A DNA stretch of 35,744 nucleotides from a virus. Below are positions 705 through 35,744 of this stretch, one piece after another. A program made the translations under genes and the position numbers. Below the pieces are notes generated by a model. That model ran no database searches, was not told the origin of the DNA, and saw only the letters and a program-made list of their open reading frames with translations. Location of the stretch: positions 1 to 35,744 of the IMG/VR virus record IMGVR_UViG_3300023199_000167; one strand, 5' to 3'. Within the stretch, counting starts at the first letter, position 1; every line of letters begins with the position of its first letter.

Positions 705-722
705 GCCCCCTTTTCAGGGGGC
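705..722. other. GC-rich hairpin between operon genes
   Basis: GCCCCC (705-710), loop TTTTCA, GGGGGC (717-722): a perfect 6-bp G/C stem 17 nt upstream of the 687 start codon on the minus strand. No T-run follows on either strand, so it is a poor intrinsic terminator. An mRNA processing, stability or attenuation element inside the operon is more likely. Confidence 0.5.
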
Positions 723-728
723 GCTTAC

Positions 729-1206: not shown

Positions 1207-1421
1207 CGTGTTTCACTCTTTCCGTGTGACCAGAAATTTATCAGACGGTTGAATTCTTCTTGCGCAACTTCCGGCCTCTCAAACTCCAAACGAATGTCCA
1301 TGCTGTTATCCATAACCACATAAATTTTAGATGGTGGCTTTTCATCCTTCAGTTGAACGAAGCTAATTTTGCTCGCATCAACTCCAATCTTTCTTTTGCC
1401 GAGAAACATAAAATCGTCCAT
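1203..1421 (-). CDS. small protein of unknown function
   Basis: 72 aa from the ATG at 1421, which overlaps the TAA of the upstream gene as TAATG and has TAAGGA about 8 nt upstream. An in-frame ATG at 1463 would add 14 residues and a 43-bp overlap, but I prefer the coupled start. The protein reads as alternating strands (K-I-Y-V-V-M-D, M-D-I-R-L-E-F) followed by a helix ending F-N-R-L-I-N-F-W, like a small alpha/beta phage protein. No family recognised. Confidence 0.65.
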   Translation of the reverse strand: MDDFMFLGKRKIGVDASKISFVQLKDEKPPSKIYVVMDNSMDIRLEFERPEVAQEEFNRLINFWSHGKSETR

Positions 1422-2336: not shown

Positions 2337-3354
2337 TCTTTTCACTTTCCTCTCTTTTAAGATTTAGCCTAGCTATCCAATGCTGATTCATGGACTCGAT
2401 CATCTCTATGTGTTCCTCGCTCAAGTCCGATCCATCTTGAATCTTTTTTGATCTTCGTAGTGCAAAATCATTTAGCTGTGCAAAAAACAAATCGTCTGGA
2501 ACATCTCCATAGCAATAATCGTTCTTATATGGGCCGTATTTAACTGGAACATCTCCCCAAGCAAGCGATCTCATTTTATTTGCTTGTTTATGGATCTCTA
2601 GCTTTTCATCTTTTTTAGGAATTTTTTGCTCGGACCTTACAGACTCTGATTTTTTCTTCTGTATCTTTCCGGAGGCCCTCCAATCTGCAATCATTTTGCC
2701 AATTTCCGGGGAGAGCTTAAAGGTTTCCATTTCGGCAAACATTCCTGTTCGATCCTTTGAAACTGAGGCGTTGTGATTGATGTCTACGTCAAAGACGATA
2801 TCGAATTCATATTCAAATCCATCTCTCTGAACTGGAGCCAAGCCAACTTTCGTGGGTGCCTGCTTTCCGTTTCTCTCGCTCATTATGTATTCAGTTTTGG
2901 ATCTCATTGTGCAGATCAAGTCTGTTTTTGAAAACAGAACTGCATTAACAAGTGCGTTTTGTTCAGGAGTCATCTTTCCCCAATTAGTGAAATGATTCGA
3001 TCCGGGTTTTTGATCGAGAGCTTCTTTTCGCTGAAGAACACCACCCTCCCCGTTCCAAGCGTGAGAAAGGGAATCAACTATTCCAATGTCATACCCGGAC
3101 TCTGAAATTTCATTGATTGCTTTTAAATATTTTTTGATGAGGAATGGAGCAGACATCGAGGCTACATCGAAATCAAAACGATCTCCGTAGAGAGACATTG
3201 TTGAATTCTCGGTATCGATTCCTGCAATCTTTCCGTTTGGATGAATTCCTTTGGCGAGGAGAAGAGCTCCTAATGTTTTGCCTGATCCGGATGGACCTGT
3301 GATCGCTATTCGCAGTTTTACCTGTGATTTTTCTGCCTTTTTGAACAAGGACAT
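2194..3354 (-). CDS. Sak4/RecA-like phage AAA ATPase
   Basis: 386 aa. P-loop NTPase: Walker A G-P-S-G-S-G-K-T at residues 20-27, Walker B ending G-I-V-D-S (D94), and the conserved D-T-E-N strand after Walker A. This is the AAA_24/Sak4-type ATPase used by phages in single-strand annealing and recombination alongside replication. The C-terminal ~55 residues are a polar disordered tail overlapping the next gene. I chose ATG 3354 because AGAAGG lies 7 nt upstream; a GTG at 3375 has no comparable site. First gene of the leftward operon; GTCACAC repeats overlap its leader. A start-proximal position and a structured upstream region suggest this is where early transcription begins. Confidence 0.85.
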   Translation of the reverse strand: MSLFKKAEKSQVKLRIAITGPSGSGKTLGALLLAKGIHPNGKIAGIDTENSTMSLYGDRFDFDVASMSAPFLIKKYLKAINEISESGYDIGIVDSLSHAWNGEGGVLQRKEALDQKPGSNHFTNWGKMTPEQNALVNAVLFSKTDLICTMRSKTEYIMSERNGKQAPTKVGLAPVQRDGFEYEFDIVFDVDINHNASVSKDRTGMFAEMETFKLSPEIGKMIADWRASGKIQKKKSESVRSEQKIPKKDEKLEIHKQANKMRSLAWGDVPVKYGPYKNDYCYGDVPDDLFFAQLNDFALRRSKKIQDGSDLSEEHIEMIESMNQHWIARLNLKREESEKNESNDRNSGVEKQNKKFREKNNQSRDTESPDPFKDEETKTAKSNSAS

Positions 3355-3419
3355 GTCACACCTTCTTTCTGTCACACTTTAAAGATGTGGGCAGGGGAGC
3401 CTGATAGAGGAAGTGTGAC
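3355..3419. promoter_or_regulatory. GTCACAC repeats upstream of ATPase operon
   Basis: GTCACAC occurs at 3355-3361 and 3371-3377 (16 bp apart) and inverted as GTGTGAC at 3413-3419. GTCACACTT (3371-3379) and AAGTGTGAC (3411-3419) form a perfect 9-bp inverted repeat. The first copy lies in the SD region of the ATPase start at 3354. Such spacing fits an operator array or an RNA leader controlling the early operon. I see no confident -35/-10 pair. Confidence 0.45.
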
Positions 3420-3475
3420 CAAACTCTCTCAGACTGCGCCCCCTGCCCGCGAATCATAACTCCTGGGAGGAAATT

Positions 3476-3487
3476 ATGAAAAGCTAG
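3476..3487 (+). other. three-codon minigene with strong SD
   Basis: GGGAGG (3465-3470) is followed after 5 nt by ATG AAA AGC TAG, encoding Met-Lys-Ser. The ATG sits at the base of a small hairpin (AGCTA-GGTG-TAGCT, 3482-3495) that contains the stop codon. Tiny ORFs with excellent SD sites exist in phages (lambda bar minigenes), where they stall ribosomes or deplete tRNA. Chance is possible. Confidence 0.2.
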
Positions 3488-3520
3488 GTGTAGCTCTTCA
3501 CCACCAAAAAGAAAAGACGT

Positions 3521-3532
3521 TAACAATTGTTA
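3521..3532. promoter_or_regulatory. 12-bp perfect palindrome, copy 1
   Basis: TAACAATTGTTA, fully self-complementary, between two hairpins in the gene-free region. An identical copy lies at 4601-4612, and I see no third full copy. Looks like an operator for a dimeric phage regulator or an origin-binding site. Confidence 0.5.
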
Positions 3533-3950
3533 CATGAAGCGGAGTCCCGAAGAATTATTGGTTTCAGCTGGTTTGAGTTGAGAACATTGGTCAATTGCTC
3601 GCAGCGCAAATAAATAAAGGGCTGGGAGGTTGATGTGCCTGCTCCAGCCCTTTAAAAAACTCCTTGCTGCAAAACGCAGGAGCCGGGGAAGGGTCGAGCC
3701 TACCCAATCGGGGCTTCTAAAACAAATGCCGATTACAAACTTAGGACGAAAGATTTCTAAGCCACAAGCGCTCACTTGGGCCGACGGGCGACCGACGGGA
3801 ATCAAGGACAGCTAGACCGTGACAGCAGGGTACCACGCCACAGAGGGCCTCTGGAACCTGCCCATCCTCGCATTCGGGGTATCGGCTAGAGGGTTAAAGC
3901 CCCTCATCATAGGGAATGCCTGCTTGAATATTTTTTAAAAAAACCTCTAC

Positions 3951-3964
3951 AAGGGGAAACCCTT
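3951..3964 (+). other. GNRA-capped hairpin
   Basis: AAGGG-GAAA-CCCTT: a perfect 5-bp stem with a GAAA tetraloop, just after the T6 run of the structured region. GNRA loops are typical of functional RNA rather than of random sequence. It is not followed by a T-run, so it is not a terminator. Confidence 0.4.
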
Positions 3965-4059
3965 CTTGTACCTCGAAGCTCCCTCAAGGAATCAAAATTT
4001 TTTGGATCAAAGATGGGAGGAACTCAATTCTAGACCGAGTCCCTCCCTAGGTCTGAAGC

Positions 4060-4257
4060 CTAATTGTCAGAGGAGACTTCAGAGGATTGAATGTGTTCAA
4101 AAATACTTTTCTCTAGAATTTCAGACCCGGAATCAACGATTCTACTTTTGCAATATTTTAAAATTTCTTTATCAGTCATTTCAGGATGAATTTTTTTGAC
4201 TTTATCGAATATGTGTCCAGGAATGAGAATATCAGCTCGAACTGCGAAATATCTCAT
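4060..4257 (-). CDS. small protein of unknown function
   Basis: 65 aa, start ATG 4257 overlapping the upstream TGA (ATGA). It begins M-R-Y-F-A-V-R-A-D-I-L-I, continues with H-P-E-M-T-D-K-E-I-L-K-Y and ends with an acidic helix. The pattern of an N-terminal strand then helices suggests a small globular phage protein. No family recognised. It pairs with the following coiled-coil protein as a two-gene leftward unit facing the structured region. Confidence 0.6.
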   Translation of the reverse strand: MRYFAVRADILIPGHIFDKVKKIHPEMTDKEILKYCKSRIVDSGSEILEKSIFEHIQSSEVSSDN

Positions 4258-4487
4258 TTTAGCTCCATTCGACGCAATTGGGCTTCAAGTTGAAAAATGT
4301 CGCTTTCAAGATTGACTCGAAGGTTTTCCAGCCTGACAAGTCCATTCCGCACTGTATCAGCTACTCCGGGTTCGTTTATGCGTCGAAGATATTCGATGGT
4401 AGTAATAAAGCATCCAATCGAATGCTTGAGTCCGTTCAGATCTTTTCGGCGCTCGGCCAAGGTATTTTGCAATTCTTCTATTTTCAT
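4254..4487 (-). CDS. small coiled-coil protein
   Basis: 77 aa from ATG 4487, chosen because AGAGGAG sits 6 nt upstream on the minus strand. The protein is almost entirely helical with heptad-like leucines (L-Q-N-T-L-A-E-R-R-K-D-L near the start, L-E-S-D-I-F-Q-L-E-A-Q-L-R-R-M near the end), consistent with a coiled-coil oligomer. First gene of the unit, 114 bp downstream of the second TAACAATTGTTA copy. Function unknown. Confidence 0.65.
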   Translation of the reverse strand: MKIEELQNTLAERRKDLNGLKHSIGCFITTIEYLRRINEPGVADTVRNGLVRLENLRVNLESDIFQLEAQLRRMELK

Positions 4488-4563
4488 TTTTTCTCCTCTG
4501 ACAGCCACATAATGCCATTTTTGTTCACTTTTCTGTGTAAAACTTGCGTTAAATCGCTGTTTT

Positions 4564-4598
4564 GTTCAAGAAAATGCACTTTCCCTGCATTTTTGAAC
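4564..4598. repeat. 13-bp inverted repeat next to palindrome
   Basis: GTTCAA-GA-AAATGCA (4564-4578) and TGCATTTTTGAAC (4586-4598) are complementary over 13 bp apart from a 2-nt bulge, with a CTTTCCC loop. It lies 2 bp from the TAACAATTGTTA copy at 4601. TTTTGTTCA also occurs directly repeated at 4519-4527 and 4560-4568. The 4488-4780 gap holds this cluster and otherwise only AT-rich sequence. A control region for the 4487 gene is likely. Confidence 0.5.
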
Positions 4599-4600
4599 GG

Positions 4601-4612
4601 TAACAATTGTTA
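4601..4612. promoter_or_regulatory. 12-bp perfect palindrome, copy 2
   Basis: TAACAATTGTTA, identical to 3521-3532 and 1080 bp away, upstream of the leftward coiled-coil gene and adjacent to a 13-bp inverted repeat. Two identical palindromes flanking one transcription unit fit a shared regulator. Confidence 0.5.
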
Positions 4613-4746
4613 AGATTTTGCTGCTATGATCGATTTTTCCTAGGAAAATTCATTCAGATCAGCAATTTGGGACTTGCTCAGCTAGTATTTTTTGCTAATA
4701 ATTTTCTTGGCAAGTATCTCAGAATCTTTTCGAACTTTTCCCAACG

Positions 4747-4776
4747 AGGGACAGACGTCCGAATTAGTCTGTCCCT
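4747..4776. terminator. hairpin at end of RecU-like gene
   Basis: AGGGACAGAC (4747-4756) and GTCTGTCCCT (4767-4776) form a perfect 10-bp stem with a 10-nt loop, starting 5 bp beyond the stop of the leftward nuclease gene. Position and stability suggest a transcript end for that gene, although the T-run expected on the minus strand is weak. Confidence 0.55.
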
Positions 4777-4780
4777 AAAT

Positions 4781-5281
4781 TTATCGAAAACGAATTTTCA
4801 GAGGCCCCCCAAGAAATCCCCAGCTAATCGAATCTACGTCAGCAGTCGACCACCGATCAGCCATCACCCAGCGTATTTCGCCCGTGTCCGCAAGCAAAAC
4901 CAAAAAGCCACCGATGTGTCCTCGAGCACATATTTCTTGGAGCACGAGCCTTTGTTGCATCGTAGAGTCTGGTCTGTAATACTTGCCGATCTTTTTATGG
5001 TTTCCCTTCAGCCATGACGGTCGAACTACTGCCGCACCGCTCCTTGCTTTGGCGTCAAAATAAATTGGATCGTATTCCGGGCCCGGACCAATTGCTACGA
5101 AGTCAAAAGGCTGTGAAACTTTGATCAGCTTCTTTTGGCCGTTTTTTATTATCATTTTGCAACCGTCCTCGATGGACAAAGCTAAAAAACCAGCTCTTTT
5201 TAGTTCCATTTCAACGTGATTTTCGAAGCCTTCTCCTAACTTTTTGGCTCGTTTTTTGACTAAATATCGAGGAATTCCCAT
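4781..5281 (-). CDS. RecU-like PD-(D/E)XK nuclease
   Basis: 166 aa, similar in layout to RecU-type Holliday-junction resolvases and phage penicillin-binding-related-factor nucleases. An N-terminal basic helix leads to G-E-G-F-E-N (E20 as first acid), then P-F-D-F-V-A (D60) and Y-F-D-A-K-A (D76 and K78, the D-x-K of the core). A later M-Q-Q-R-L helix fits the RecU conserved Q region. It would resolve branched intermediates before packaging, working with the Sak4-like ATPase. ATG 5281 has AAGGAT about 8 nt upstream. Divergent from the methyltransferase gene, with only 36 bp between starts, so the promoters of both probably overlap there. Confidence 0.75.
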   Translation of the reverse strand: MGIPRYLVKKRAKKLGEGFENHVEMELKRAGFLALSIEDGCKMIIKNGQKKLIKVSQPFDFVAIGPGPEYDPIYFDAKARSGAAVVRPSWLKGNHKKIGKYYRPDSTMQQRLVLQEICARGHIGGFLVLLADTGEIRWVMADRWSTADVDSISWGFLGGPLKIRFR

Positions 5282-5317: not shown

Positions 5318-6532
5318 ATGCAAAATAAAGACATCAAAGTGGAATGGAAAGATCCAAAAAGTCTGAAACCACACCCTAAAAATCGAAATAAACACCCCAA
5401 AAGTCAAATCGAAAGACTAGCTCAGCTTCTTGAATATCAAGGATGGCGTCTCCCAATCATTGTTTCGAAGCGCTCTGGATGTGTTGTAGCAGGGCATGGT
5501 CGATTGGAAGCTGCTCTTCTTTCTCAAATGAAGAAAGTCCCGGTTGCTGTTCAAGACTTTGAAGACGCCGATCAGGAATATGCATTCATGGTGTCCGACA
5601 ATTCGATCAGTGAGTGGGCAGATCTTGATTTGTCAGCAATCAACGACGATCTAGCTGACTTCGATCCAGATTTTAATTTAGATATGCTTGGATTTGAGGA
5701 TTTTGCTTTAGAGCCTGCAGATAAGTATGGAGAAAAAGACGCTGACGACACCCCAGACAAACCGAAAAACGAAAAAACGAAGAATGGAGAGCTCTGGCAT
5801 CTTTCTCATCACAAGTTGTTTATAGGAGACGGAACCCTTAAAGAATCATACATAAATCTTCTCGGAAATGAAAAGATAGATCTCGTTGTGACAGATCCTC
5901 CATACAACGTGGCTTACAATGGAAAAACGAAACAAAAAATGCTCATCAAAAACGACAATATGGATGAAGATGATTTTTTTCAGTTCCTATATGAGGCCTT
6001 CGAACAGATGGCCAACGCAATGAAGCCTGGGGCTGCATATTATATTTTCCATGCAGATTCGAAGGGGTATCACTTTAGGAAAGTCGTAAACGATTGCGGA
6101 CTAATGATGAAGCAATGTCTAATCTGGGTAAAAAATAATATTACTTTTGGCAGGAATGATTACCATTGGAAGCACGAGCCGATTCTTTATGGGTGGAAGC
6201 CTGGAGCTTCTCACCAATGGTCATCCGACCGGAAGCAAACCACGGTCTGGGAATTTGGCAGACAATCCAAGAATCTTGAACATCCAATGATGAAGCCAGT
6301 CGATATGATATGTTACGCAATTAAAAACTCGAGCAAGGCAAACGATATTATTTTGGATCCATTCTCAGGCTCCGGCTCAACCCTCATAGCTGCCGAAAAA
6401 ACATCAAGAAGCGCTCGATGTATGGAGTTAGATCCAAAATACGCCGATGTTATTTTACAGCGCTGGGCTGAATTCACTGAACTGGATCCAGTGCGAGATG
6501 ATGGGAAAAGATGGAGCGATCTAAATGCCTAG
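5318..6532 (+). CDS. ParB-domain DNA methyltransferase (N6-A or N4-C)
   Basis: 404 aa fusion. Residues ~8-90 are a ParB/Srx-type nuclease-like domain with the box V-V-A-G-H-G-R-L-E-A-A (56-66). Residues ~155-385 are a class-beta amino-methyltransferase: catalytic T-D-P-P-Y (DPPY 193-196) precedes the SAM-binding D-P-F-S-G-S-G-S-T (347-355). An acidic linker separates the domains. DPPY favours adenine-N6 methylation. Such fusions are common in phages, immediately before terminase, and may protect DNA from host restriction or mark it for packaging. No partner restriction gene is visible. SD weak. It overlaps TerS by 8 bp. Confidence 0.9.
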   Translation: MQNKDIKVEWKDPKSLKPHPKNRNKHPKSQIERLAQLLEYQGWRLPIIVSKRSGCVVAGHGRLEAALLSQMKKVPVAVQDFEDADQEYAFMVSDNSISEWADLDLSAINDDLADFDPDFNLDMLGFEDFALEPADKYGEKDADDTPDKPKNEKTKNGELWHLSHHKLFIGDGTLKESYINLLGNEKIDLVVTDPPYNVAYNGKTKQKMLIKNDNMDEDDFFQFLYEAFEQMANAMKPGAAYYIFHADSKGYHFRKVVNDCGLMMKQCLIWVKNNITFGRNDYHWKHEPILYGWKPGASHQWSSDRKQTTVWEFGRQSKNLEHPMMKPVDMICYAIKNSSKANDIILDPFSGSGSTLIAAEKTSRSARCMELDPKYADVILQRWAEFTELDPVRDDGKRWSDLNA

Positions 6533-8373: not shown

Positions 8374-10499
8374 GCAATTTTTTCTCGAGACTATGGAACA
8401 GAAAACAATCTAGAGCTCTTACGGTAGTCACCACTCAGGAAGCAGATCAAAGTAGATCAACACCAAAGAATTACGATGCTATGAGTCACCAAGGCTATCT
8501 GCTGAACGTGATTTGCTATGACGCCACCCAAAAAATTGCAAAAGGCCTTGGTTCTTTGAAGTGGAACCTTTTTCAGAAAAACATTCGTGGAAAGCGCGGA
8601 GACGAACTGGAGGGGCATCCAATTCTAGACTTGCTCAGCAGACCGAATCCTATGATGAGCAAATTTCAATTTATGCAGGCCGTTGCTTCTTTCTATCAAA
8701 TCGCAGGAAATGTTTTCATCGAGGGAATTTCGGGAACCGGCAGAAAGTACAGGGAGCTCTATCCTCTGCCTCCCACATATTTTAAAATTATTCCGGGAAC
8801 GAGGGGCTTTCCGAAGAAATACGTTTTCAAATACAGATCTGAAGAGATTAATTATGAAGTCGATGAAATGACTGGCCTTGCGGATATTTTGCACTTGAAA
8901 ACATTTCATCCAACAAACATGTATTGGGGAATGAGTCCCCTGGAGCCAGCTTTTCTATCAATTGACCAACACAACGCAGCTGCAAAGCACAACCTTGGTC
9001 TTCTTCAAAACGGAGCAAGACCAAGCGGCGCTGTTAAAATCGATAAAGACTTTAATGGGACTGGTGTTTTAGATGACGATGAATTCGATAATCTTAAAGA
9101 GCAGCTCAGAGATACGATGCAAGGCCCACAGAACGCAGGCAAGACAGTAATCCTCGAAGGCGGCATGGAGTGGACACAGATGGCAATGAATCTAGCCGAT
9201 CTCGATTGGCTTGAGGGAACAAATCAGAACGCAAGAAACATTTCCCTTGCTCTTGGCGTCCCTCCTATTCTCTTGAACATTCCGGGAGATTCAACTTACA
9301 ACAATTACGCAGAAGCTCGCCAAGCAATGTACGAGGAAACAGTTATCCCACTGGCCTACATGCTTCGAGATGAATTGAACAGATGGCTGGTTCCCGGATA
9401 TGGAGACAGATTAGAGTTAGACATCGACATCGATTCGATCGAATCGCTCAACCCTAAACGACAGAACAAATTCGAAATGTATCAGCAAGTCGATTACCTA
9501 ACGGACAACGAAAAAAGATCTGCTGTTGGGTATGATCCGATTGAGGGTGGAGATACACTGGCTAGATCTGCCTCTGTGAGCGACTTGTCTGAAACCGAAG
9601 AGGAAAGATCAGATTCTGAAAACGAAGATCAGAGTGAAGACGAGAAGTCAGTTAAGGTCATTGAGAAAGAAACCATCGTTCATGAGGATTTACTTGCCGG
9701 AGATTTAAAAGTTTTCAATCTAATCACTAGAGACGAAAAAAAGAAAACCAGACGAAAGATGGAGGCTCTTGAAACATTTTACATCAAGCGCCTCGAGGAA
9801 GACCTAGCAGATGACTATTTCAAGCCCATTGCTAAATCGCTTAGAAAAATTAACACGACGGAAAAGAGACTGGCTGAAGCTCAGGCCCTTAAAGCCATTG
9901 ACAAAATGGATGAGGAGCTTTCAACGCTACTTCAAAAATACCTTAAAAGGGTCGCGAGACAGTTTGGTGATCCCATTATTGACGGAGGCAAAAGTTGGTG
10001 GGGTGCTAATTGGGAGCAAAAAAAGGAGTCAGACTACACATCGTGGATTGAGTTTTTTGTTGCACAAAGGGCCCAGGAGTCTCTACAAGTTATCAAATCA
10101 ACGACGCTGTCCGAAACCAGATCAATTCTTGAAAAAGAAATCTTCACAGGAGTAAGTGAAGGACAGTCAATCGATACTATTTCTTCTAATATCAGTAAAA
10201 GATTTTCTGACATTTCCACTTCACGCGCGCGCACGATAGCGAGAACTGAAGTTGGAATTTCTAGCAAGCAGGCAACTCTTCAAGCAGCGGAAGCATTGGA
10301 TATTCCAGATCTCAGAAAGGAATGGATCGCAACAGACGATCACAGGACTAGAGACGACCATAACGATATGGATGGAACGAAGGTCGGACTTAAAGAAAGT
10401 TTCAGCGTGAACGGAAGCATAATGAACGGACCTGGTGATCCGAGCGGACCTGCCGATCAAGTGATCAATTGCCGATGCAGACTAGTTTTTGAGGTTTAA
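8370..10499 (+). CDS. portal protein fused to MuF-type minor head protein
   Basis: 709 aa, far longer than an HK97-type portal (about 400-450 aa). Residues ~1-395 are the portal: helical stem and clip with [15 protein letters not shown] near 310. An acidic low-complexity linker (about 397-425) follows. Residues ~440-709 are a MuF-like domain with [20 protein letters not shown] and a terminal Q-V-I-N-C-R-C-R. Portal forms the dodecameric DNA gate; MuF proteins are minor capsid or ejected components, so the fusion delivers them at the portal vertex. ATGA-coupled to TerL. Confidence 0.9.
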
Positions 10500-10504
10500 T
10501 ATCA

Positions 10505-11002
10505 GTGGCTGTCGCTGGACCTAGAAAAAAGCTTGGTCCTGTTGGCCCTGCAGGACCAAAGGGTGAGAGGGGGCCGCAGGGTGATCGAGGACCGAAAGGC
10601 GATCGTGGGGAACGCGGCCCTCAAGGGGCCACTGGATTCACAGGCCCACAGGGTCCAAGAGGTCCGGCTGGGCGAGACGGACTCGATGCCGATGGTGCTT
10701 GGATTGAAATTCCATCTCAGATCGTGCCAGCAGGTCAAACTGTGCAATTGTTAAATGTAGCCGCAGCGAATTGCAACGGAGGTAAAATTTACGTTCAGGG
10801 CTTCAGTGAAGCCGAAGAAAGTTCGAAAATATACGAGATGCTTCTTGCCAAAGTCGGTAATTCAATTTTTGATACAATCAACAAAACCGGAAACCTTCGG
10901 ATGTCTTTGAATGCGACTTTGAGCGCTGGAAACATCGTCCTTACACTACAAAACAACGAAACTTTTTCAGCGACATTCAAAGGTTATCGGTTACTCTTTT
11001 AA
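10505..11002 (+). CDS. collagen-like virion protein
   Basis: 165 aa. Starts at GTG 10505 (GAGG about 10 nt upstream, inside the portal gene's end). Residues 11-61 are 17 uninterrupted Gly-X-Y triplets rich in Pro/Lys/Asp/Arg ([12 protein letters not shown]), able to form a triple helix. Residues ~65-165 are a beta-rich globular trimer head (I-P-A-G-Q-T-V style strands). Phage collagen-like proteins are usually tail fibres; between portal and protease a head fibre or decoration spike is likelier. The triplet region is GC-richer than its neighbours. Confidence 0.85.
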
Positions 11003-28579: not shown

Positions 28580-29020
28580 ATGAAACTCTTCAAAGAAAAG
28601 CCGAATACGATTATAGTGCATTGTAGTGCCTCCAATATCATTGCCGATGCCAACTCAATCAGAGATCTTCATATCAATAGTTTTGGGTGGAGCGATATTG
28701 GCTACCATTTTGTTATTGATCGAAAAGCCACTATTCAGATGGGTCGATCTATCAGACATCAAGGAGCTCATTGTCGTGGTCATAATGATTACAGTATTGG
28801 CATCTGTCTTGGCGGCAATACTCACATGGACTTTTCGAGGCGACAGTTTGAATCCCTGCAATCCGTCTGTTCGCAGCTTAGAAGGCACAATCCGGAAATA
28901 AAATATTTGATGGCTCACTATGAGTTGGACACTAAAGGAAAGACTTGTCCTAATGTTCCTGCCGAACTTTTACGGCTTTGGTTAGGATTTGAGAAGCGTC
29001 CTGATAGCCAATCTCAATAG
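28580..29020 (+). CDS. N-acetylmuramoyl-L-alanine amidase (T7-lysozyme-like endolysin)
   Basis: 146 aa. Amidase_2 family, cleaving the bond between N-acetylmuramic acid and L-Ala in peptidoglycan. Zn ligands by homology to T7 lysozyme: H14 (I-I-V-H-C-S), H113 (M-A-H-Y-E-L-D) and C123 (G-K-T-C-P-N); catalytic partners Y42 (I-G-Y-H-F) and K121. No signal peptide, so release needs a holin. Starts 1 nt after the holin-like gene. Its 3' end overlaps the convergent patatin gene by 71 bp. A second frame with two hydrophobic helices lies inside it. Confidence 0.92.
   Translation: MKLFKEKPNTIIVHCSASNIIADANSIRDLHINSFGWSDIGYHFVIDRKATIQMGRSIRHQGAHCRGHNDYSIGICLGGNTHMDFSRRQFESLQSVCSQLRRHNPEIKYLMAHYELDTKGKTCPNVPAELLRLWLGFEKRPDSQSQ
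28626..28901 (+). CDS. candidate two-helix membrane protein nested in amidase gene
   Basis: 91 aa in the +1 frame wholly inside the amidase gene, from GTG 28626 or ATG 28647. Two strongly hydrophobic segments, I-F-I-S-I-V-L-G-G-A-I-L-A-T-I-L-L-L-I and L-I-V-V-V-I-M-I-T-V-L-A-S-V-L-A-A-I-L, are separated by a charged turn with a polar, basic C-terminus: the topology of a class II holin. No SD is seen before any start, and codons such as G-Y-H-F or I-G-Y naturally give hydrophobic residues in this frame, so chance is a serious alternative. Listed because it is uninterrupted and holin-shaped. Confidence 0.25.
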   Translation: MPPISLPMPTQSEIFISIVLGGAILATILLLIEKPLFRWVDLSDIKELIVVVIMITVLASVLAAILTWTFRGDSLNPCNPSVRSLEGTIRK

Positions 29021-29789
29021 CGCTTTTGATTTTTGAGTTATCAAAGTCCATAACATCAATGACATGATCCTGTGGCGCGACCAAATGGATCTCAACTTTT
29101 CTGTCGTAGACCTTGTGGTGCTGAAAATCCTCGTGGTAGCCCTCTGCCATAATCAGCTCAACGCTTCTCTTTGCGATTTCAACTAGGCCAGAAACGTCTT
29201 TCATTTTTCCAATTCTCTTCGATCTTTCGTGTGGAAAATTTAAAAACATGAATATTCTTTCAGCACCCTGCTCAATAACGCTTTTGAGAGGAATGTTTTC
29301 AAGGACGCCACCGTCAACATATCGATCCTTGACGGGCTCAACCAAAATAGGAATCGATGCAGAGGCAACAACCCAGTCGATGAATTTTGACTGGTCCTCC
29401 ATCGCCGAGCTTGCTTGCACCAATCTGCCAGACTGAAGGTCAGTGACGTTGACGAAAGTAAGGTACTGAGGCTTTCGCCCAAGAATGATTTTCTCCACCT
29501 TCTTTCGAAGGGGAGTTGAGTGGTAAATTCCATCCACGCCAAAGGGCAACCCCAACAGCCTGAACAGATTGGTGCCAAAAATATCGCCTCGGCTTTTAAC
29601 TGATTTCCAAATAGATATCAGCTGCTGAATTCCAGCGTAAGAATAACCGGCTGCGTTAAGAGCTCCGGCGCTTGTTCCCCAGAGGAAGTCTGGCTTGATT
29701 CCTAGCTCCTCAGCGGCCTTGAGAGCCCCTGCCTGATACGATCCTGCGGCCCCGCCGCCAGCCAATACGAATGCAGTTTTCTTTCCCAT
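28950..29789 (-). CDS. patatin-like phospholipase
   Basis: 279 aa, complete active site: oxyanion G-G-G-A-A-G (11-16), G-T-S-A-G (S40 nucleophile) and V-D-G-G (D159 of the Ser-Asp dyad). The fold continues with W-V-V-A-S-A-S-I-P, as in bacterial patatins that hydrolyse acyl chains of membrane lipids. No signal peptide, so cytosolic. It is on the opposite strand to the tail and lysis genes, convergent with the amidase (71-bp overlap) and divergent from the hub-like gene, with 43 bp between. No SD precedes ATG 29789. Looks like an independently acquired 'moron' gene. Possible roles are host-membrane lysis or superinfection effects. Confidence 0.9.
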   Translation of the reverse strand: MGKKTAFVLAGGGAAGSYQAGALKAAEELGIKPDFLWGTSAGALNAAGYSYAGIQQLISIWKSVKSRGDIFGTNLFRLLGLPFGVDGIYHSTPLRKKVEKIILGRKPQYLTFVNVTDLQSGRLVQASSAMEDQSKFIDWVVASASIPILVEPVKDRYVDGGVLENIPLKSVIEQGAERIFMFLNFPHERSKRIGKMKDVSGLVEIAKRSVELIMAEGYHEDFQHHKVYDRKVEIHLVAPQDHVIDVMDFDNSKIKSAIEIGYQDASQILTKAVKVRQEH

Positions 29790-29820: not shown

Positions 29821-29835
29821 CATAGTCAGACTATG
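29821..29835. promoter_or_regulatory. 15-bp palindrome over divergent start
   Basis: CATAGTC-A-GACTATG: perfect 7-bp arms around one base. Its last three bases are the ATG of the rightward hub-like gene, and it lies 31 bp from the leftward patatin start. Suggests an operator controlling both, or a start-codon hairpin limiting translation of the hub gene. Confidence 0.5.
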
Positions 29836-32085
29836 GCATTTCCAATCACTCAGAACGCACAGAATGCGGCAAATCAGATCAACGTAAAGCCTGTCATAGT
29901 CATGGAAATCGATGGATTGCCATATCGCTTTGGAAGCGCAACGCTTGTGACGCTGATCAGAATTGGGGACGCTGGGCTTTTCATAAACAATTACCTCGGA
30001 GATCCTTGGGTGATTGGTGGCTACAGAAAGCTTGAAAATCAGTTTGATTACATATCTTTTGACCGTGGTGGAGCTGCTAAAATTACTCAGTCCCTCAAGG
30101 CAGATAGAGGAAAAGGCACGTCTGTTCAAAGGCTTCAAATAGCCTTGATTGACAAAAATGATGAGGTCTCAGAAATCATAAGTCCTGGAATTGTGCTGAA
30201 TGAAATACTGGGACGCAATGTCAAAATATATCAGGGCTTTGAGAATACGAGTTTCCCGGAAGACTACATCACAATCTTTCGAGGCCTAATTGAAGGTGTC
30301 GACTCAAAGCCGGGGTTAATTTCATTTAATCTATCGAATGTAGAAGAAAAGAAAAGACAAGGTGTTTTCAGATCAAGAAAAACTCAGCTCGCTAGCGCGA
30401 TAACTCAGGCATCGAGTCCAACGACTGTGACTGTTGACGATGCATCTGAATTCTTAAATGCCATCACAGGACCAGATGGAACCGAAGACTCTGCTTTGAC
30501 TTTTTATTTTAAAATCAATGATGAGGTTTTTTCCTACACCGGAACCACTGGAACAACTTTCACTGGAGTTCAGAGAGCTCAGCTAGGGACTGTCGCTCAA
30601 GATCACGACGTGGAAGACAATGTGGAGTCGATTGTTAGAATAGAGGAAAACGGAATCAATTTAGCCTTAAAATTAATGCTGAGCGGGACAAATGGATTCT
30701 ATGTCGAAAACATCTCAGTGACCAATTTTGAATATATCAATCCCTTGGCATCAGTGGATAATGCAGTCTTGGTCAAAAACATAGACTTGAAAGAAGTCTA
30801 TGGGGTTGCTGAAGGAGATTTCGTGACCATTACAGGGTCCGCCATAGGCGGAAACAATGTTTCTGCATCTGAGATTTTAGAGATTCAGATTGTGGAGGAA
30901 GGAACGTATTTGATTCTTGATGATACTCTTACTCAAGAAATCGACAGCGCAGCAGAGATGTCGATAAGAAGCGCCTTTGACACCTTTCCGGAGGGACTTG
31001 GAATGCTGCCAAGTGAAGTTGACGTTGAAGAGCATGTCAGAATTTTCAATCTATTTCTTTCTGGATTCAATTTTGATTTCAGAATCACAGACATGAGCGA
31101 CGCAAAGAAATTTCTTGATGAGCAGGTCTATCTGCCTATGAGTGCTTTTTCAGTTCCCAGGAAAGGAAGGGCCTCGTTGGGCTACACAATCGGCCCGATC
31201 CCCGGATCAAACATAGTAACGCTAGACAGATCGAATATCACAAATGCAGATAGACTTCAGCTATCAAGATCCCTTGGGACAAATTTCACAAATACGGTCC
31301 GATATGAATATGATCAGAATGTTGTCAATGATAATTTTGACACAGTCAAGGAATATGAAGACTCCCAATCAAAAATCGATATTCCGGTCGGAGACAAGTC
31401 CCTAGAAATTTCAGCCGAAGGAATGAGAACAAGCACCAGCGCAGACACTCTCTCAAATGCTGCCGCAAACAGAAGGCTAAAAAGATACGGACGGGGCGCT
31501 GAATATCTTAAAGGAGTCGAAGTTCAGTATGGAACCGGATTCAACTTGGAAATCGGTGATGTGATTCTCTTCGATACAGCAGCTCTTCAGGTCACAGACA
31601 CAGAGACGGGAAGCAGATCTGGCTCTTTGAAATTCATGGAAATTCAAAACAAGATTCTCGATAATAAAAGTGGGAAGGTAATTCTCGATCTCACAAGAAC
31701 CGCTTTTGAGGTAGGCGAAAGATATGGCCTCATCTCTCCATCAAGCAAAGTAAAGCAAGTCACAAACGGACAACAGTTTGTCATCGAAAAAAGCTTTTTC
31801 ACCAATCTTTTAAACGAAGGAAGAAAATGGCAGGATCTCGTTGGAGCTTCCGTTATAGTAAGAAATGAAGACTCCACCGCCATTTCTACAGTCGGAACGA
31901 TTAGTGCTGTTGTTGGGGATGAGATATTTCTTGAAAGCGCAATAAGTCCAGTTCCTGTTGCTGGAAGAATTTTAGAGTTAGCTACTTACGACAATCAACC
32001 TGATCTCGTAAAATTGTTGTATGCCTTCTTTTCTGACGGGTCTAACAATTTTGCTGATGGTCAGCCACCATACGTCTTTTTGTAA
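29833..32085 (+). CDS. tail hub/tip-like protein
   Basis: 750 aa, beginning M-A-F-P-I-T-Q-N-A-Q-N-A-A. Strand-rich with segments typical of siphovirus tip or hub proteins (V-K-I-Y-Q-G-F, I-T-I-F-R-G-L-I-E-G-V, then L-G-Y-T-I-G-P-I-P-G). Residues ~190-275 are an insertion-type beta module (T-T-V-T-V-D-D-A-S-E-F-L, F-K-I-N-D-E-V-F-S-Y-T-G). The N-terminal I-V-M-E-I-D-G-L ... Y-R-F-G pattern fits the tail-tip family that carries a DUF2163-like start. It is separated from the other tail genes by the lysis/patatin insertion. No SD seen before ATG 29833. Confidence 0.65.
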   Translation: MAFPITQNAQNAANQINVKPVIVMEIDGLPYRFGSATLVTLIRIGDAGLFINNYLGDPWVIGGYRKLENQFDYISFDRGGAAKITQSLKADRGKGTSVQRLQIALIDKNDEVSEIISPGIVLNEILGRNVKIYQGFENTSFPEDYITIFRGLIEGVDSKPGLISFNLSNVEEKKRQGVFRSRKTQLASAITQASSPTTVTVDDASEFLNAITGPDGTEDSALTFYFKINDEVFSYTGTTGTTFTGVQRAQLGTVAQDHDVEDNVESIVRIEENGINLALKLMLSGTNGFYVENISVTNFEYINPLASVDNAVLVKNIDLKEVYGVAEGDFVTITGSAIGGNNVSASEILEIQIVEEGTYLILDDTLTQEIDSAAEMSIRSAFDTFPEGLGMLPSEVDVEEHVRIFNLFLSGFNFDFRITDMSDAKKFLDEQVYLPMSAFSVPRKGRASLGYTIGPIPGSNIVTLDRSNITNADRLQLSRSLGTNFTNTVRYEYDQNVVNDNFDTVKEYEDSQSKIDIPVGDKSLEISAEGMRTSTSADTLSNAAANRRLKRYGRGAEYLKGVEVQYGTGFNLEIGDVILFDTAALQVTDTETGSRSGSLKFMEIQNKILDNKSGKVILDLTRTAFEVGERYGLISPSSKVKQVTNGQQFVIEKSFFTNLLNEGRKWQDLVGASVIVRNEDSTAISTVGTISAVVGDEIFLESAISPVPVAGRILELATYDNQPDLVKLLYAFFSDGSNNFADGQPPYVFL

Positions 32086-32094
32086 GGAATAAAA

Positions 32095-32952
32095 ATGGCA
32101 GATTTACCAGATACCAGTTTTACCTCAGTCAATGACATCGAAACCGAGCAGGGAAAACCCGTCACAGAGGCGCTCGCTCAAAAATATGGATCGAATGAAA
32201 ACAATCTCGATTCTAGAGTTTCAGATAACGCTGCCGACATTATTTCAAACTTTAATTCCTTAAGTGCTCTGATTGGCCAAAGAAAATTTCGTGTTCAGGA
32301 GTTCACTAGCGGAGGAACCTGGACCCGGCCTTCAGGAGTGGATTGGGTTATCGCTGTCGGATGCGGAGGAGGCGGAGGCGGAGGCGGCGGATCTTTCCGA
32401 ACTGCTGGCTCTCAGGTCGGAGGTCAGGGAGGCGGTGGATCTAGTTTAACTTGGGGAATTGTTTCTGTTAGCTCAAACCAAACAGTGGTCATTGGATCCG
32501 GTGGAAGCGCTGGCGCAGGGGCTAGCCTTTTTGGAACCAACGGAGGAAATGGCGGAGATGGCTTTAGCTCTGGATTTGGCTCATTTGAGTTTAAAGGAGG
32601 GCGAGGCGGCGCAGGCGGCGGAGATGGCGCTCTACGATCAGACAAGTCTTGGGCTGGATATGGAACAAATGGTGGCGGCAATGGCGGCCATTCGACAAAT
32701 GATGGAAATGGAAATGGAAACCGGTCTGGCTATGCAGATGGCGGATCCGGTGGCGGATCCTTGTCTGACGGAGGCGGAGGCGGCGCAGGGTATGGAGATG
32801 GAGGAGACGCCGGAAACGTAGCTGTGGTAAACACTGGCGGAGGAGGCGGCGGTGGGAGCGGCGTAACTTTTGGTGTGGGAAATCCAGGCCGACTAGGCGG
32901 GAGTGGAAGGGTTTGGGTAATTTGGTTCGAGCCCGAGGCCGATAAAGTTTAA
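32095..32952 (+). CDS. glycine-rich tail adhesin
   Basis: 285 aa. Residues ~1-65 are a helical trimerisation region (S-V-N-D-I-E-T-E-Q-G-K-P). From F-T-S-G-G-T-W-T-R-P (~70) the protein becomes poly-Gly-rich, with runs up to nine Gly (near residues 90-98), ending in V-W-V-I-W-F-E-P-E. This matches glycine-rich phage adhesins whose polyglycine-II brush and exposed loops bind host receptors. It is the last tail gene. Good SD (AAGGAAT about 6 nt upstream). The G-rich codons leave a GC-rich stretch compared with flanks. Confidence 0.85.
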   Translation: MADLPDTSFTSVNDIETEQGKPVTEALAQKYGSNENNLDSRVSDNAADIISNFNSLSALIGQRKFRVQEFTSGGTWTRPSGVDWVIAVGCGGGGGGGGGSFRTAGSQVGGQGGGGSSLTWGIVSVSSNQTVVIGSGGSAGAGASLFGTNGGNGGDGFSSGFGSFEFKGGRGGAGGGDGALRSDKSWAGYGTNGGGNGGHSTNDGNGNGNRSGYADGGSGGGSLSDGGGGGAGYGDGGDAGNVAVVNTGGGGGGGSGVTFGVGNPGRLGGSGRVWVIWFEPEADKV

Positions 32953-32958: not shown

Positions 32959-32980
32959 TTTCCCTAAATCCATTGGGAAA
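32959..32980 (+). other. small hairpin after adhesin gene
   Basis: TTTCCC (32959-32964) and GGGAAA (32975-32980) form a 6-bp stem just past the stop codon. Not followed by a T-run; probably 3'-end stabilising together with the larger structure that follows. Confidence 0.4.
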
Positions 32981-32983
32981 TAG

Positions 32984-33055
32984 ACGGGCCTGTGGGCCTG
33001 CTTGCCGTGAAGCCCCCCAAAGCAAGCGAGTCAGAGCAGGTTGCCACGGGCCCGT
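32984..33055. terminator. large bidirectional-type terminator structure
   Basis: ACGGGCCTGTGG (32984-32995) pairs with CCACGGGCCCGT (33044-33055) over 12 bp (one G.U), enclosing further short stems (GCTTGC/GCAAGC and CCTGC/GCAGG possibilities). Plus strand continues TAATTATTTT. It lies between the end of the rightward tail genes and the end of the leftward operon, so it can stop both. Confidence 0.75.
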
Positions 33056-33058: not shown

Positions 33059-33274
33059 TTATTTTACTTCAGCTTTTTGCCTTCGTAAAAGCAACTGGCC
33101 TAGCCATTGATTAAAACAAGATCCTGTTTTGAACTTGTGGTGCGCGACTGGGGTAAAGAATTCAAGTCTGGATATTTTGGCCTCTGAACCGTATCGCGCA
33201 TTAAACATAACCTCGAAGTCGGTCACAAATTGTTTTACCTCTTCGTCTAATTCTCTATCTTTTTCTTCACTCAT
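33059..33274 (-). CDS. small protein of unknown function
   Basis: 71 aa from ATG 33274, overlapping the previous gene by 8 bp (ATGAGTGA). Acidic N-terminus (M-S-E-E-K-D-R-E-L-D-E-E-V-K-Q-F), then F-F-T-P-V-A-H-H-K-F and a basic tail. Last gene of the right-hand leftward operon. No family recognised. Confidence 0.6.
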   Translation of the reverse strand: MSEEKDRELDEEVKQFVTDFEVMFNARYGSEAKISRLEFFTPVAHHKFKTGSCFNQWLGQLLLRRQKAEVK

Positions 33275-33563
33275 CCCCAACCCCCATCTCCCTAAACGCT
33301 AATGTATATCCAAAAGCAAATATCGACTTTTCCAGCTCAGACATATCTTCATCATCGCCCCAAAACGATTTAGCCATTTCATCGACGTATTCATCCATAT
33401 CTTCCTTGCTAGGCCTAGGGAGGGGTCTAGCTCGCTCCCCATCGAGTGCCTTAGCGATTTCAGCAATAAGCCCTGGAGTGTTGTTGACCGAGTAGCCATG
33501 AATGAATTTCGAAACGATACTTTCAGCAATCTCTTCAGACGTTTTCAGATTAAAACTTTTCAT
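33267..33563 (-). CDS. small protein of unknown function
   Basis: 98 aa from ATG 33563, overlapping the upstream TGA (TGATG), with GGAA 5 nt before it. Helical, with E-I-A-E-S-I-V-S-K-F-I-H-G-Y near the start, an acidic middle (D-D-E-D-M-S-E-L-E-K) and F-A-F-G-Y-T-L-A-F at the end. No domain recognised. Part of the operon of tandem-repeat proteins. Confidence 0.6.
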   Translation of the reverse strand: MKSFNLKTSEEIAESIVSKFIHGYSVNNTPGLIAEIAKALDGERARPLPRPSKEDMDEYVDEMAKSFWGDDEDMSELEKSIFAFGYTLAFREMGVGDE

Positions 33564-34186
33564 CACTCACTTTCCAACTCTTGCAGCCGATATTTTTTGC
33601 CGTCGATCTCAAGGATTTTTGCAGAACAGTTTGGTTTGTCAACGTCAATACCTGTAATCTCTTTGAAAACGTCAGCGTCAAACTCAGGCCAAGATTTGAT
33701 ATAATCAATCGCTTCTTGCGGCATTCCTTCCCAGTGGAGAGGCTCGGCTTGACTACGTATTAGAGACGCATCAACTTTTTTCCAATCGCGCCCGTATTGA
33801 TCATAGAGCTTGAATGCATTGTTTGGTTTTGGGTTCCAGCCGTTTAGCTTATTTTTTAAAATCTCAAGCCTTTCATTGAAATCATCTTCAGGGACTTTAA
33901 CGCCAAAAATCGTCGGATCAGTTTTTTTGTTGAGAGCGAAAAGTGCTTTGTGAACACCAGCGCAGTTTTTAACTCCAAAAGACCTATTCACGCCATCACA
34001 CCAGTTCACGCCAAAAGACCCGTTCACGCCATTGGACCCGTTCACGCCCTCAGACCCATTCACGCTATTAGAGGCGTTCACACCAAAAGACCCGTTCACG
34101 CCAAAAGACCCGGTCACGCCAAAAGACCCGTTCACGCCATTGGACCTGTTCACGCCATCGCTGGCTTTTATCGATTTGTTACTCAT
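33563..34186 (-). CDS. hexapeptide-repeat protein (G-V-N-G-S-x)
   Basis: 207 aa with strong SD (AGGAGG, 7 nt upstream of ATG 34186). Residues 11-82 are 12 tandem hexapeptides, consensus G-V-N-G-S-F/N (G-V-N-R-S-N, G-V-T-G-S-F, S-V-N-G-S-E), likely a beta-solenoid. Residues ~85-207 are a unique domain (L-N-G-W-N-P-K-P-N-N-A-F-K-L-Y, D-W-K-K-V, A-I-D-Y-I-K-S-W-P-E-F-D-A). Similar repeat-plus-domain proteins occur in phages with unknown function. The array is also an 18-bp DNA repeat, so length variation is likely. Confidence 0.8.
   Translation of the reverse strand: MSNKSIKASDGVNRSNGVNGSFGVTGSFGVNGSFGVNASNSVNGSEGVNGSNGVNGSFGVNWCDGVNRSFGVKNCAGVHKALFALNKKTDPTIFGVKVPEDDFNERLEILKNKLNGWNPKPNNAFKLYDQYGRDWKKVDASLIRSQAEPLHWEGMPQEAIDYIKSWPEFDADVFKEITGIDVDKPNCSAKILEIDGKKYRLQELESE
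33959..34156 (-). repeat. 18-bp tandem repeat (hexapeptide array)
   Basis: Eleven clear in-frame 18-bp units (CCAAAAGACCCGTTCACG-type on the plus strand) encoding G-V-N-G-S-F repeats. A twelfth, degenerate unit extends towards 33941. Confidence 0.85.
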
Positions 34187-34189
34187 TTT

Positions 34190-35209
34190 TTATCCTCCTC
34201 TGCATTCAAAAAATTTTCGAAACACATCGCTTTGATAGGCACCTTTTGTTAACTCAATTGCCTGTTTCACCGTGCACTTTTCAGGCGGATTTTTTGTGTC
34301 CACAAACTCTTTCATTCCCAATGAACAAGCACCAGTGATTGCGTGATAGGCTTCCAGAAATTCGTCCAATGTCTTTTCGTCGCCTAGCTGCCAATTTTCA
34401 AATTTACTTGTATCTCTATCAGAGAACTTATAACGAAGATCCTCAACAGCTTCCTTGACTGTTTTTCCATGAGCAAACTTGGCGCCCTTTTTTGCAATGT
34501 AACTTTCGCTTTGGTCTAAAAACTCTTCGACGGTGTATAAAGTTACTTCGCCTAATTTCTTCTGACTCTTTAGTTTTTTAATGATCCCATCGGCTTCGAC
34601 GTATCCACGAGAAAGCATGTATTCAAAATCACGCTTTATTTGTCTTGGGGAGTTAATCACAGTAGTTGTTTCTGTTTTTTCTATCATAGGACTACAATCA
34701 ACAATATGGGCGCAAGAGTAATCTTCCAGCCGCACCTTTGATGCGCTTGAAAAACAATGGCAAAAAGATCTACCCCAAAGCACTGCACTTGAGCTACCCC
34801 AAAGCTCTGCCCTTGAGTTTTCCCAAAGCTCTGCACTTGAGTTGTCGTAAAGCTCTGCTCTTGAGTTACCCCAAAGCTCTGCACTTGAGTTTTCCCGAAG
34901 CACTGCACTTGAGTTGTCGCAAAGCTCTGCACTTGAGTTGTCGTAAAGCACTGCTCTTGAGTTGTCGCAAAGCTCTGCACTTGAGTTTTCCCGAAGCACT
35001 GCACTTGAGTTGTCGCAAAGCTCTGCACTTGAGCTACCCCGAAGCTCTGTTCTTGAGTCTTTGGGATTAGAACGAATGATTATACGTTCTCCCGAAAGAA
35101 TATGAATACAAGTGAATTCTTCAAATTCACTTGGCAATCCATCCCATTCTTTTTGGCTTGTTACTTTGATAACTTTTTGTTTAGTGTTGTTTTGTTCTTC
35201 GTTTTTCAT
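34190..35209 (-). CDS. octapeptide-repeat protein (N-S-S-A-E-L-x-x)
   Basis: 339 aa. After ~50 residues (I-K-V-T-S-Q-K-E-W-D-G-L-P), about 12 octapeptide repeats (N-S-S-A-E-L-C-D, N-S-S-A-V-L-R-E, N-S-R-A-E-L-W-G) give a probable beta-solenoid. The C-terminal ~140 residues form another domain with F-A-H-G-K-T-V-K-E-A-V-E-D-L-R-Y-K-F and Y-H-A-I-T-G-A-C-S-L-G, a module seen in other phage repeat proteins. No enzyme motif. It overlaps the 54-aa gene by 29 bp and is followed 3 bp later by the hexapeptide gene. Confidence 0.8.
   Translation of the reverse strand: MKNEEQNNTKQKVIKVTSQKEWDGLPSEFEEFTCIHILSGERIIIRSNPKDSRTELRGSSSAELCDNSSAVLRENSSAELCDNSRAVLYDNSSAELCDNSSAVLRENSSAELWGNSRAELYDNSSAELWENSRAELWGSSSAVLWGRSFCHCFSSASKVRLEDYSCAHIVDCSPMIEKTETTTVINSPRQIKRDFEYMLSRGYVEADGIIKKLKSQKKLGEVTLYTVEEFLDQSESYIAKKGAKFAHGKTVKEAVEDLRYKFSDRDTSKFENWQLGDEKTLDEFLEAYHAITGACSLGMKEFVDTKNPPEKCTVKQAIELTKGAYQSDVFRKFFECRGG
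34777..35064 (-). repeat. 24-bp tandem repeat (octapeptide array)
   Basis: Twelve in-frame 24-bp units (AAAGCTCTGCACTTGAG-type on the plus strand). A 66-bp segment at 34872-34937 recurs exactly at 34968-35033, a 96-bp offset, showing recent duplication of a four-unit block. Confidence 0.9.
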
Positions 35210-35345
35210 TTTTATTATCCTTGTCCTGGGCTCGTCGCTCTTGAAGTTCTTTTAAAAGCGCAATGGTTGTTTCAAGAGCATCGTCTTCTGCCTTTTCATA
35301 AAGCTTAATCGTTACGGCTAGTTCTTTGTCGGATATTGGTTTCAT
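35181..35345 (-). CDS. 54-aa small helical protein
   Basis: Starts at ATG 35345, overlapping the TGA of the partial repeat gene (ATGA), with GGGAG 8-9 nt upstream. The product begins M-K-P-I-S-D-K-E-L-A-V-T-I-K-L-Y and ends E-K-R-R-T-K-Q-H: one charged helix. It overlaps the octapeptide gene by 29 bp in the +1 phase. The strong SD and coupling make it real despite its size. Function unknown. Confidence 0.6.
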   Translation of the reverse strand: MKPISDKELAVTIKLYEKAEDDALETTIALLKELQERRAQDKDNKNEKRRTKQH

Positions 35346-35743
35346 TGCTCAATCTCCCAAATCCGCTTAGCGTATTCAAAACTTGCTTGGATCTTTTTGA
35401 ATTCTATTGAATCGCGAGGCGTTTCAAAGACTTCATCTCCAGCAAACCATTCATCCCAATCCTTGATTGATTTTGCTACGCAGCCGATTCGGACCCATCC
35501 TTTTTCGTTCAAATAAATATTCCACTTACATTGAGCCAGCCTGCGAAAGCCGATTATCTTTTCTGCTTCGATGAACTCACCTGCTTTGATGAACCTACCC
35601 GCTTCGATGAACCCACCCGCTTTGATGAACCTACCTGCTTTGATGAACCTACCTGCTTTGATGAACCTACCTGCTTTGATGAACTCACCTGCTTCGATGG
35701 ACCTACCCGCTTCGATGAACCAACCTGCTTCGATGAACCAACC
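35342..35743 (-). CDS. hexapeptide-repeat protein (A-G-x-F-I-K/E), 5' truncated
   Basis: Partial: the frame is open to the window's right edge, so the start is missing. 133 residues visible: about ten hexapeptides A-G-[RWEG]-F-I-[KE] (one with S for F), then a C-terminal domain R-R-L-A-Q-C-K-W-N-I-Y-L, W-V-R-I-G-C-V-A-K-S-I-K-D-W-D-E-W-F, ending Y-A-K-R-I-W-E-I-E-Q. Third repeat protein in a row, with a different repeat type. The repeats suggest a left-handed beta-helix-like solenoid. The ATGA overlap with the 54-aa gene places it in the same operon. No function known to me. Confidence 0.8.
   Translation of the reverse strand, partial: GWFIEAGWFIEAGRSIEAGEFIKAGRFIKAGRFIKAGRFIKAGGFIEAGRFIKAGEFIEAEKIIGFRRLAQCKWNIYLNEKGWVRIGCVAKSIKDWDEWFAGDEVFETPRDSIEFKKIQASFEYAKRIWEIEQ
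35564..35743 (-). repeat. 18-bp tandem repeat (A-G-x-F-I-K array)
   Basis: Ten in-frame 18-bp units (TGCTTTGATGAACCTACC-type on the plus strand), continuing past the window edge. Two adjacent units at 35636-35671 are exact copies. Confidence 0.9.
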
Positions 35744-35744
35744 T

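Follow-up and report, generated by a model that had tools for sequence, protein, structure and literature searches.

Three adjacent repeat-protein genes of a phage appear to be independent, modular accessory genes

INTRODUCTION

Phages often encode "hypothetical" proteins built of repeats, which are usually overlooked. Among the closest known proteins are those with the domain DUF7666 (PF24703), as in Gordonia phage Spooky gp76 and phage ctHz2215, where a repeat array of the NSSVEAW-type 8-residue or GNNxSN kind is combined with a small conserved domain. In variable lymphocyte receptors, and in recognition proteins of similar repeat-based build, a solenoid with a few variable positions is paired with a constant C-terminal part. 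The present analysis concerns three genes, P0001, P0002 and P0003, at the right end of IMG/VR virus record IMGVR_UViG_3300023199_000167, a stretch of 35,744 bases (the window) known here from its sequence and from models. Their products share the layout of the DUF7666 proteins, and the array type of P0002 is that of Spooky and ctHz2215. They differ in being without DUF7666 (no match of P0001-P0003 to PF24703 at E 0.1; relatives at loci L007 and L008 do match, and L004 falls below the cut-off) and in carrying other domains, here called P1c, C1 and P3c. One relative, L007, holds DUF7666 and P1c together in a single protein. A literature search on DUF7666, DUF6948 and phage solenoids found no description of this protein class.

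Comparison across phages shows the three to be accessory genes of modular build that are widely traded independently of one another. A preliminary description of the window had suggested that they form one system, for instance of DNA mimics, inhibitors or surface decoys; the phenomenon is real and broader than was seen there, and is not the single system proposed. Proteins of this kind can here be sorted into a few kept C-terminal modules with exchanged repeats, so that what had been a collection of unknowns becomes a class open to testing, with defined residues to target.

THREE C-TERMINAL DOMAINS THAT OCCUR APART

All three genes lie on the minus strand: P0003 at 35342-35743 (133 aa, open at the contig end), P0002 at 34190-35209 (339 aa) and P0001 at 33563-34186 (207 aa). 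Their arrays are homogenised, with units of 18, 24 and 18 nt encoding 6, 8 and 6 residues, and a non-repeat C-terminal region follows each. Tandem Repeats Finder scores of 252 for P0003, 360-436 for P0002 and 200-233 for P0001 make these the top three arrays in the window, far above chance. Strand and reading frame are fixed because the C-terminal regions have relatives elsewhere; the long opposite-strand open reading frames (ORFs) across the arrays exist because the repeat unit is without stops. On these points the ORFs and repeat calls bear out the preliminary description, which had noted three neighbouring leftward genes with 6-, 8- and 6-residue arrays, each with its own C-terminal domain, on the strand opposite the tail genes (29833-32952).

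The proposal of one system fared differently when the domains were followed through other phages. Many of the records are incomplete, so that co-occurrence counts are lower bounds. Each C-terminal domain also occurs in other phages; of about 60 such records, a single one holds two of the three, and the rest lack both partners of the domain that they carry. P1c was found in 0 of 41 C1-carrying records (two matches were confined to repeats) and was absent from the P3c records tested; C1 was found in 0 of 16 other records carrying P1c or P3c. P3c accompanies C1 in one record only (1 of 50), G019, where the two genes are about 11 kb apart. The adjacent genes also vary between phages, and include Tad2-like, YopX, VRR-NUC and DUF669-like genes among others. 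Separate occurrence of the domains beside unrelated genes is what the preliminary description itself had named as grounds for rejecting its proposal. A single functional system, such as a three-subunit complex inhibiting a host target, is thus highly improbable, even though in the window the three genes lie side by side with coupled translation, and 4 of 27 further records, read nearly in full, also hold at least two classes of early repeat gene (G001, which holds L012, and G019, G026 and G048). Early repeat genes do gather in some phages, without a fixed trio.

C1 AND ITS EXCHANGED ARRAYS

P0002 consists of an N-cap, a predicted 8-residue beta-solenoid and C1 (34193..34630, minus strand). The array (34771..35058, minus strand; 24-nt unit, 96-nt higher-order unit) comprises eleven core units of the form [D/E/G]-[N/S]-S-[S/R]-A-[E/V]-L-[C/R/Y/W]. 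Behind it, P0002 matches the C1 profile at E 6e-52, being itself in the profile, with the invariants D, HG, K, TG.C and G within residues 207-298. C1 stands outside the Pfam, NCBIfam and PHROG libraries, matching no family in any of them. By tblastn it was found in Tetrasphaera phage TJE1, Dulem virus 31, two Riemerella phages and gut phage fragments. (Dulem virus 31, L005:3455-4453, is a 35.8-kb record with replication genes, and its taxonomy line, Microviridae, is at odds with that size and those genes.) A profile scan returned 41 IMG/VR loci and, from 84,980 genomes of bacteria and archaea, just 8 contigs; C1 is therefore essentially a phage domain.

Whether H, G, T and E are truly invariant was initially in doubt, as the scan motif had required these residues. 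A sample of 40 members reached through DUF6948, and hence unselected by the C1 motif, took this bias away: D207, H247, G248, K261, T292, C295 and G298 are conserved in 39-40 of the 40 and G293 in 37, while E253 is variable though the original motif required it. The polar invariant set of Asp, His, Lys, Thr and Cys probably marks C1 as a catalytic or ligand-binding module. As to a HicB-like fold of its first half, a single member weakly matches UPF0150-like (E 0.11) and there is no HicB row in the fold matches. A PADLOC "Specificity_I" match of P0002 (E 5e-4) falls in the repeat and is ascribed to repeat composition; PADLOC otherwise gave no relevant match.

Where the sequence is long enough, C1 is nearly always preceded by a repeat array, the type of which differs. 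At least seven types were found: the NSSVEAW-type 8-mer (window, L012, L013), a STINAGG 8-mer (L017), a SGDYAQLAS 9-mer (L005), the 20-mer LTVGGSLDLRGT, the 21-mer NNQLTSLKGCPQKVGG (L037), BspA-type LRR_5 repeats (L080) and a Gly-X dipeptide. Conversely, the 8-mer array is joined to C1 in the window, L012 and L013 but to DUF7666 in ctHz2215 and Spooky. Both arrays and C-terminal modules are exchangeable across phages.

The Gly-X arrays shed light on what the array itself contributes. Nine C1 genes with such arrays share a conserved upstream partner, DUF6948 (PF22253). Because these first loci had been found through C1, DUF6948 alone was used as query for an unbiased neighbour test on the best 80 of its 374 relatives (IMG/VR loci L156-L235). 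A Gly-X array, X being S, Y or D, lies directly downstream of DUF6948 in 71 of the 80 loci: 42 with C1, about 22 without, and 7 truncated where the contig ends. Two further loci have an interrupted Gly-rich array plus C1, and one a Cys-every-third array. The roughly 22 repeat proteins without C1 consist almost solely of array; the Gly-X array is thus the constant partner of DUF6948 and C1 the optional one, and the array is no mere expendable linker. The closest P0002 relative found, L012, has DUF6948 with a Gly-X array without C1 (4983-5515) and, about 2 kb away, a distinct C1 gene of the 8-mer type. No paper on the DUF6948-Gly-X pairing was found in the literature search.

P1c AND P3c

Single-protein IMG/VR scans for the P0001 and P0003 domains returned nothing; two-sequence and four-sequence alignments used as queries succeeded. 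The P0001 array (33975..34158, minus strand; 18-nt unit) has ten core units G-V-N-x-S-x, and behind it P1c (33566..33970, minus strand; MPxEAxDYIxSxPEFDAxxFxxITGI) matches its profile at E 5.6e-65, with P0001 itself in the profile. P1c is present in ten IMG/VR loci (L053-L062) and one faecal phage, behind three kinds of array: GVxxSx, Cys-every-third NAC/YAC/DSC triplets (L060, L062) and GNNxSN after a DUF7666 domain (L007). In L053 and L055 the P1c-type gene is 93% identical, and the remainder of the two loci gave no alignment.

Three observations concern the surroundings and relatives of P1c. A Tad2-like gene (PF11195, Thoeris anti-defence 2-like) at L053:8431-8685 begins 11 bp past the P1c repeat gene, in the lineage of L053 and L056 only. 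The Cys-every-third arrays, NAC/YAC/DSC on the P1c protein of L060 (612-1226) and DRC/DGC in a separate gene of G026 (near L067:1339-1770, minus strand), look metal- or disulphide-prone. At L059:6964-7728, an Ala-rich AAYAAAYADVRAAADAAR repeat gene that matches no Pfam family overlaps the start of the P1c repeat gene.

The P0003 array (35563..35744, minus strand; G-x-F-I-[K/E]-A, with R, W, E or G at x) has ten units present and continues off the contig end; the gene is truncated there, and its N-terminus and full unit number lie beyond the window. Its C-terminal domain, P3c (35342..35562, minus strand; IGC...W...G...E), has relatives with hexapeptide (L009, L063, L073), pentapeptide (L065, L066) and FxGG-type (L064) arrays. 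Identity of P0003 to L065 is 48% and to L066 43%, with the IGC...W...G profile behind the array. P0003 does not match the hexapeptide model PF00132, and its relative L009 does at 6.5e-16.

That some P3c relatives are pentapeptide-repeat proteins invites comparison with nucleic-acid mimics of the Qnr/MfpA kind, which would occupy DNA-binding enzymes; DNA mimics were one of the examples given in the preliminary description. A predicted solenoid rod and an acidic P0002 array (15 D/E to 6 K/R) would suit such a role. The charge of the other arrays disfavours it, however, P0001 being neutral (2 acidic to 2 basic) and P0003 slightly basic (7 to 10), which leaves P0002 as the sole candidate, and C1 is also carried on neutral, Gly-rich and LRR-type arrays; we regard mimicry as very unlikely.

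GENE SETTING

The relatives are found in the company of ERF, exonuclease, RecT, replisome organiser, helicase, SSB-like and clamp genes. This setting bears on the idea that the proteins are structural or surface components, such as virion decoys, fibres or decoration. Weak collagen-like and tail-fibre profile matches to the P0001 repeat would speak for that idea, but they span only the Gly-rich repeat; the match to Pfam Collagen (PF01391) reaches 24.7 bits against a cut-off of 27.2, and relatives have Gly only every sixth residue. With the relatives among replication and recombination genes rather than tail genes, and the window genes running opposite to the tail operon, a place on the virion is very unlikely, and the earlier suggestion of surface decoys is disfavoured.

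In the window, the operon reads leftward as P0003, a 54-aa ORF (35181..35345), P0002, P0001, a 99-aa ORF (33267..33566) and, as final gene, a 73-aa ORF (33059..33280), all on the minus strand. Coupling with small proteins, noted in the preliminary description, was confirmed: P0003 and the 54-aa ORF share an ATGA overlap, the latter overlaps P0002 by 29 nt, P0002 and P0001 are separated by 3 nt, P0001 overlaps the 99-aa ORF, and that ORF overlaps the 73-aa ORF. No relatives of the 54-aa and 99-aa ORFs were found, and a megablast of the window against phages gave no match. Leftward genes also predominate at the record's left end (49-5281), which encodes an AAA ATPase and an HNH endonuclease; from this orientation, the repeat genes probably lie at the end of the early leftward operon of a circular genome.

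Other features of the window are recorded here in their own right. Just past the last gene of the operon, at about 32980-33050, lies a GC-rich inverted repeat (ACGGGCCCGT ... CAGGCCCG), a possible terminator on which a consensus scan made no call. A patatin-like phospholipase gene (28950-29789, minus strand; PF01734, E 2.6e-28) is antisense inside the rightward tail-gene region. A structural-region protein (10493-10999) carries a collagen-like GPxGPx array whose units also vary synonymously, unlike most early arrays. The first gene of the rightward operon (5318-6532) is a fusion of ParB-N with an N6/N4 DNA methylase.

REPEAT EVOLUTION AND BROKEN ASSEMBLIES

Across the eleven core units of P0002, the GCA, CTT and TCA codons are invariant, and the other codons differ almost only by amino-acid-changing bases. 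Pairwise comparison by the NG86 method gives pN > pS in many arrays. The Gly-X arrays use essentially a single Gly codon per phage (GGC, GGT or GGG, differing among phages) and retain the S/Y/D mixture, which points to homogenisation with the residue palette preserved. Selection for diversity in the arrays is at most suggested, given the count of polymorphic sites described below.

Such arrays also break assemblies: 18 of 41 C1 loci open within the array, right where the contig ends, and four records (G006, G007, G019 and G033; loci L089/L091, L092/L094, L101/L104 and L124/L125) have pieces of the same array, by sequence, at both contig ends, as if circular phage genomes had been cut at the repeat by the assembler. 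The window's own end in P0003 is a further case. The arrays account for many phage contigs breaking at such genes. In one pair of contigs, L053 and L056, flanks that are 99.8-99.9% identical enclose arrays differing by 126 bp, or seven units.

PREDICTED STRUCTURE AND PROPOSED FUNCTION

AlphaFold2 modelled P0002 from 37 sequences with a mean pLDDT of 82: about 86 in the array, with short strands every 8 residues, and about 92 in C1, joined by a poor linker near residues 163-189. Foldseek against viral models found five phage proteins, all uncharacterised or auto-named. Several weaker matches were set aside: antibody light-chain rows in the profile search were put down to chance, and neither the best VIA-align scores, to SufB-type and pectate-lyase-type solenoids (Z 7.8, within the tool's "common" range), nor those of the C1 sheet to kinase N-lobes (Z about 5) were counted as homology.

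We tentatively favour, as possible and short of probable, a reading of these products as early cytoplasmic binding proteins with exchangeable solenoids, perhaps serving counter-defence; it draws on the gene setting, on one Tad2-like neighbour and on the analogy with repeat-protein binders. Made early and remaining in the cytoplasm, the proteins would act as binders. Along the solenoid, a handful of variable residues (S, Y, D, N, R, W, E, G) would form a ladder that determines the target, and units gained or lost would remodel it. Behind the solenoid, the C-terminal module, such as C1 with its invariant Asp, His, Lys, Thr and Cys, would act on the bound target or tether it. The most likely use would be to counter host defence or to take over proteins of the host. 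The phage of the window would have collected three such cassettes at the end of its early leftward operon, and joint action would not be required.

Several results weigh against this proposal. When each polymorphic site is counted once, the window arrays show no significant excess of amino-acid-changing sites (p 0.1 or more), and the same count gives a weak excess in Gly-X arrays (p=0.034), p=0.12 in 8/9-mers and none in other arrays; given the lack of a significant window excess, the striking pN/pS values are not claimed as diversifying selection. Differences in array length between near-identical contigs may be due to assembly collapse. The expectation of three solenoid-type proteins is supported, most clearly for P0002, a predicted beta-solenoid; P0001 was modelled as a low-confidence solenoid only, with a partly helical C-terminus and a mean pLDDT of 63.5. 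Foldseek searches of the PDB with the P0001 and P0002 models returned nothing significant, and sequence profiles found no solved relative. The Tad2-like neighbour is confined to one phage lineage.

The same data bear on a simpler account, which we consider less likely, if still a serious contender: the arrays would be nearly neutral products of replication slippage, tolerated as spacers, and the C-terminal modules would carry the function. Homogeneity at the DNA level, gain and loss of units, exchange of repeat type and the non-significant selection tests for the window arrays are all consistent with it. It sits poorly with the persistence of Gly-X arrays beside DUF6948 without C1 (about 22 of 80), with arrays conserved over large divergence, and with variation at the same unit positions, from the same small residue palette, in phages using different codons.

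Cytoplasmic binding remains the preferred reading, and a bolder extension of it is conceivable, though decidedly a long shot. In this extension the proteins would form an undescribed class of phage recognition protein, in which a fast-remodelled array sets the target, a constant catalytic C1 acts on it, and counter-defence specificity evolves by swapping or re-copying units. If true, this would be a viral analogue of repeat-based immune receptors.

COMPARISON WITH KNOWN FAMILIES

Apart from the DUF7666 proteins, several groups share one part or another with the window proteins. The DUF6948 and Gly-X pairs are alike in that at least 42 of the 80 loci have C1 joined to the Gly-X array; the window differs in containing no DUF6948 and no Gly-X array, and carries its C1 on an 8-residue solenoid. 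Phage LRR-like proteins, in the Tetrasphaera phage TJE1 orf51 region and as the "ribonuclease inhibitor" of Riemerella CRP5/CRP6, have the same C1 with its invariant residues, behind leucine-rich repeats of about 20 residues or of BspA type rather than the 8-residue solenoid of P0002. Phage pentapeptide and hexapeptide (LbH) proteins (L065, L066, L009, L063) end in the same P3c domain as P0003, whereas the GxFI[KE]A unit of P0003 fits neither Pfam model; P0001-P0003 give no Pfam match to a pentapeptide A(D/N)LxX array, and their periods are 6 and 8 residues. Escherichia coli YdhT (NCBIfam NF007410) has an array resembling the one in the C1 protein of Dulem virus 31, a likeness limited to the repeat.

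Variable lymphocyte receptors offer an analogy only. They share no homology with the window proteins, for which any somatic-type diversification would be hypothetical; the resemblance would be between a solenoid with a few variable positions ahead of a constant C-terminal part and the array-plus-domain proteins of the window.

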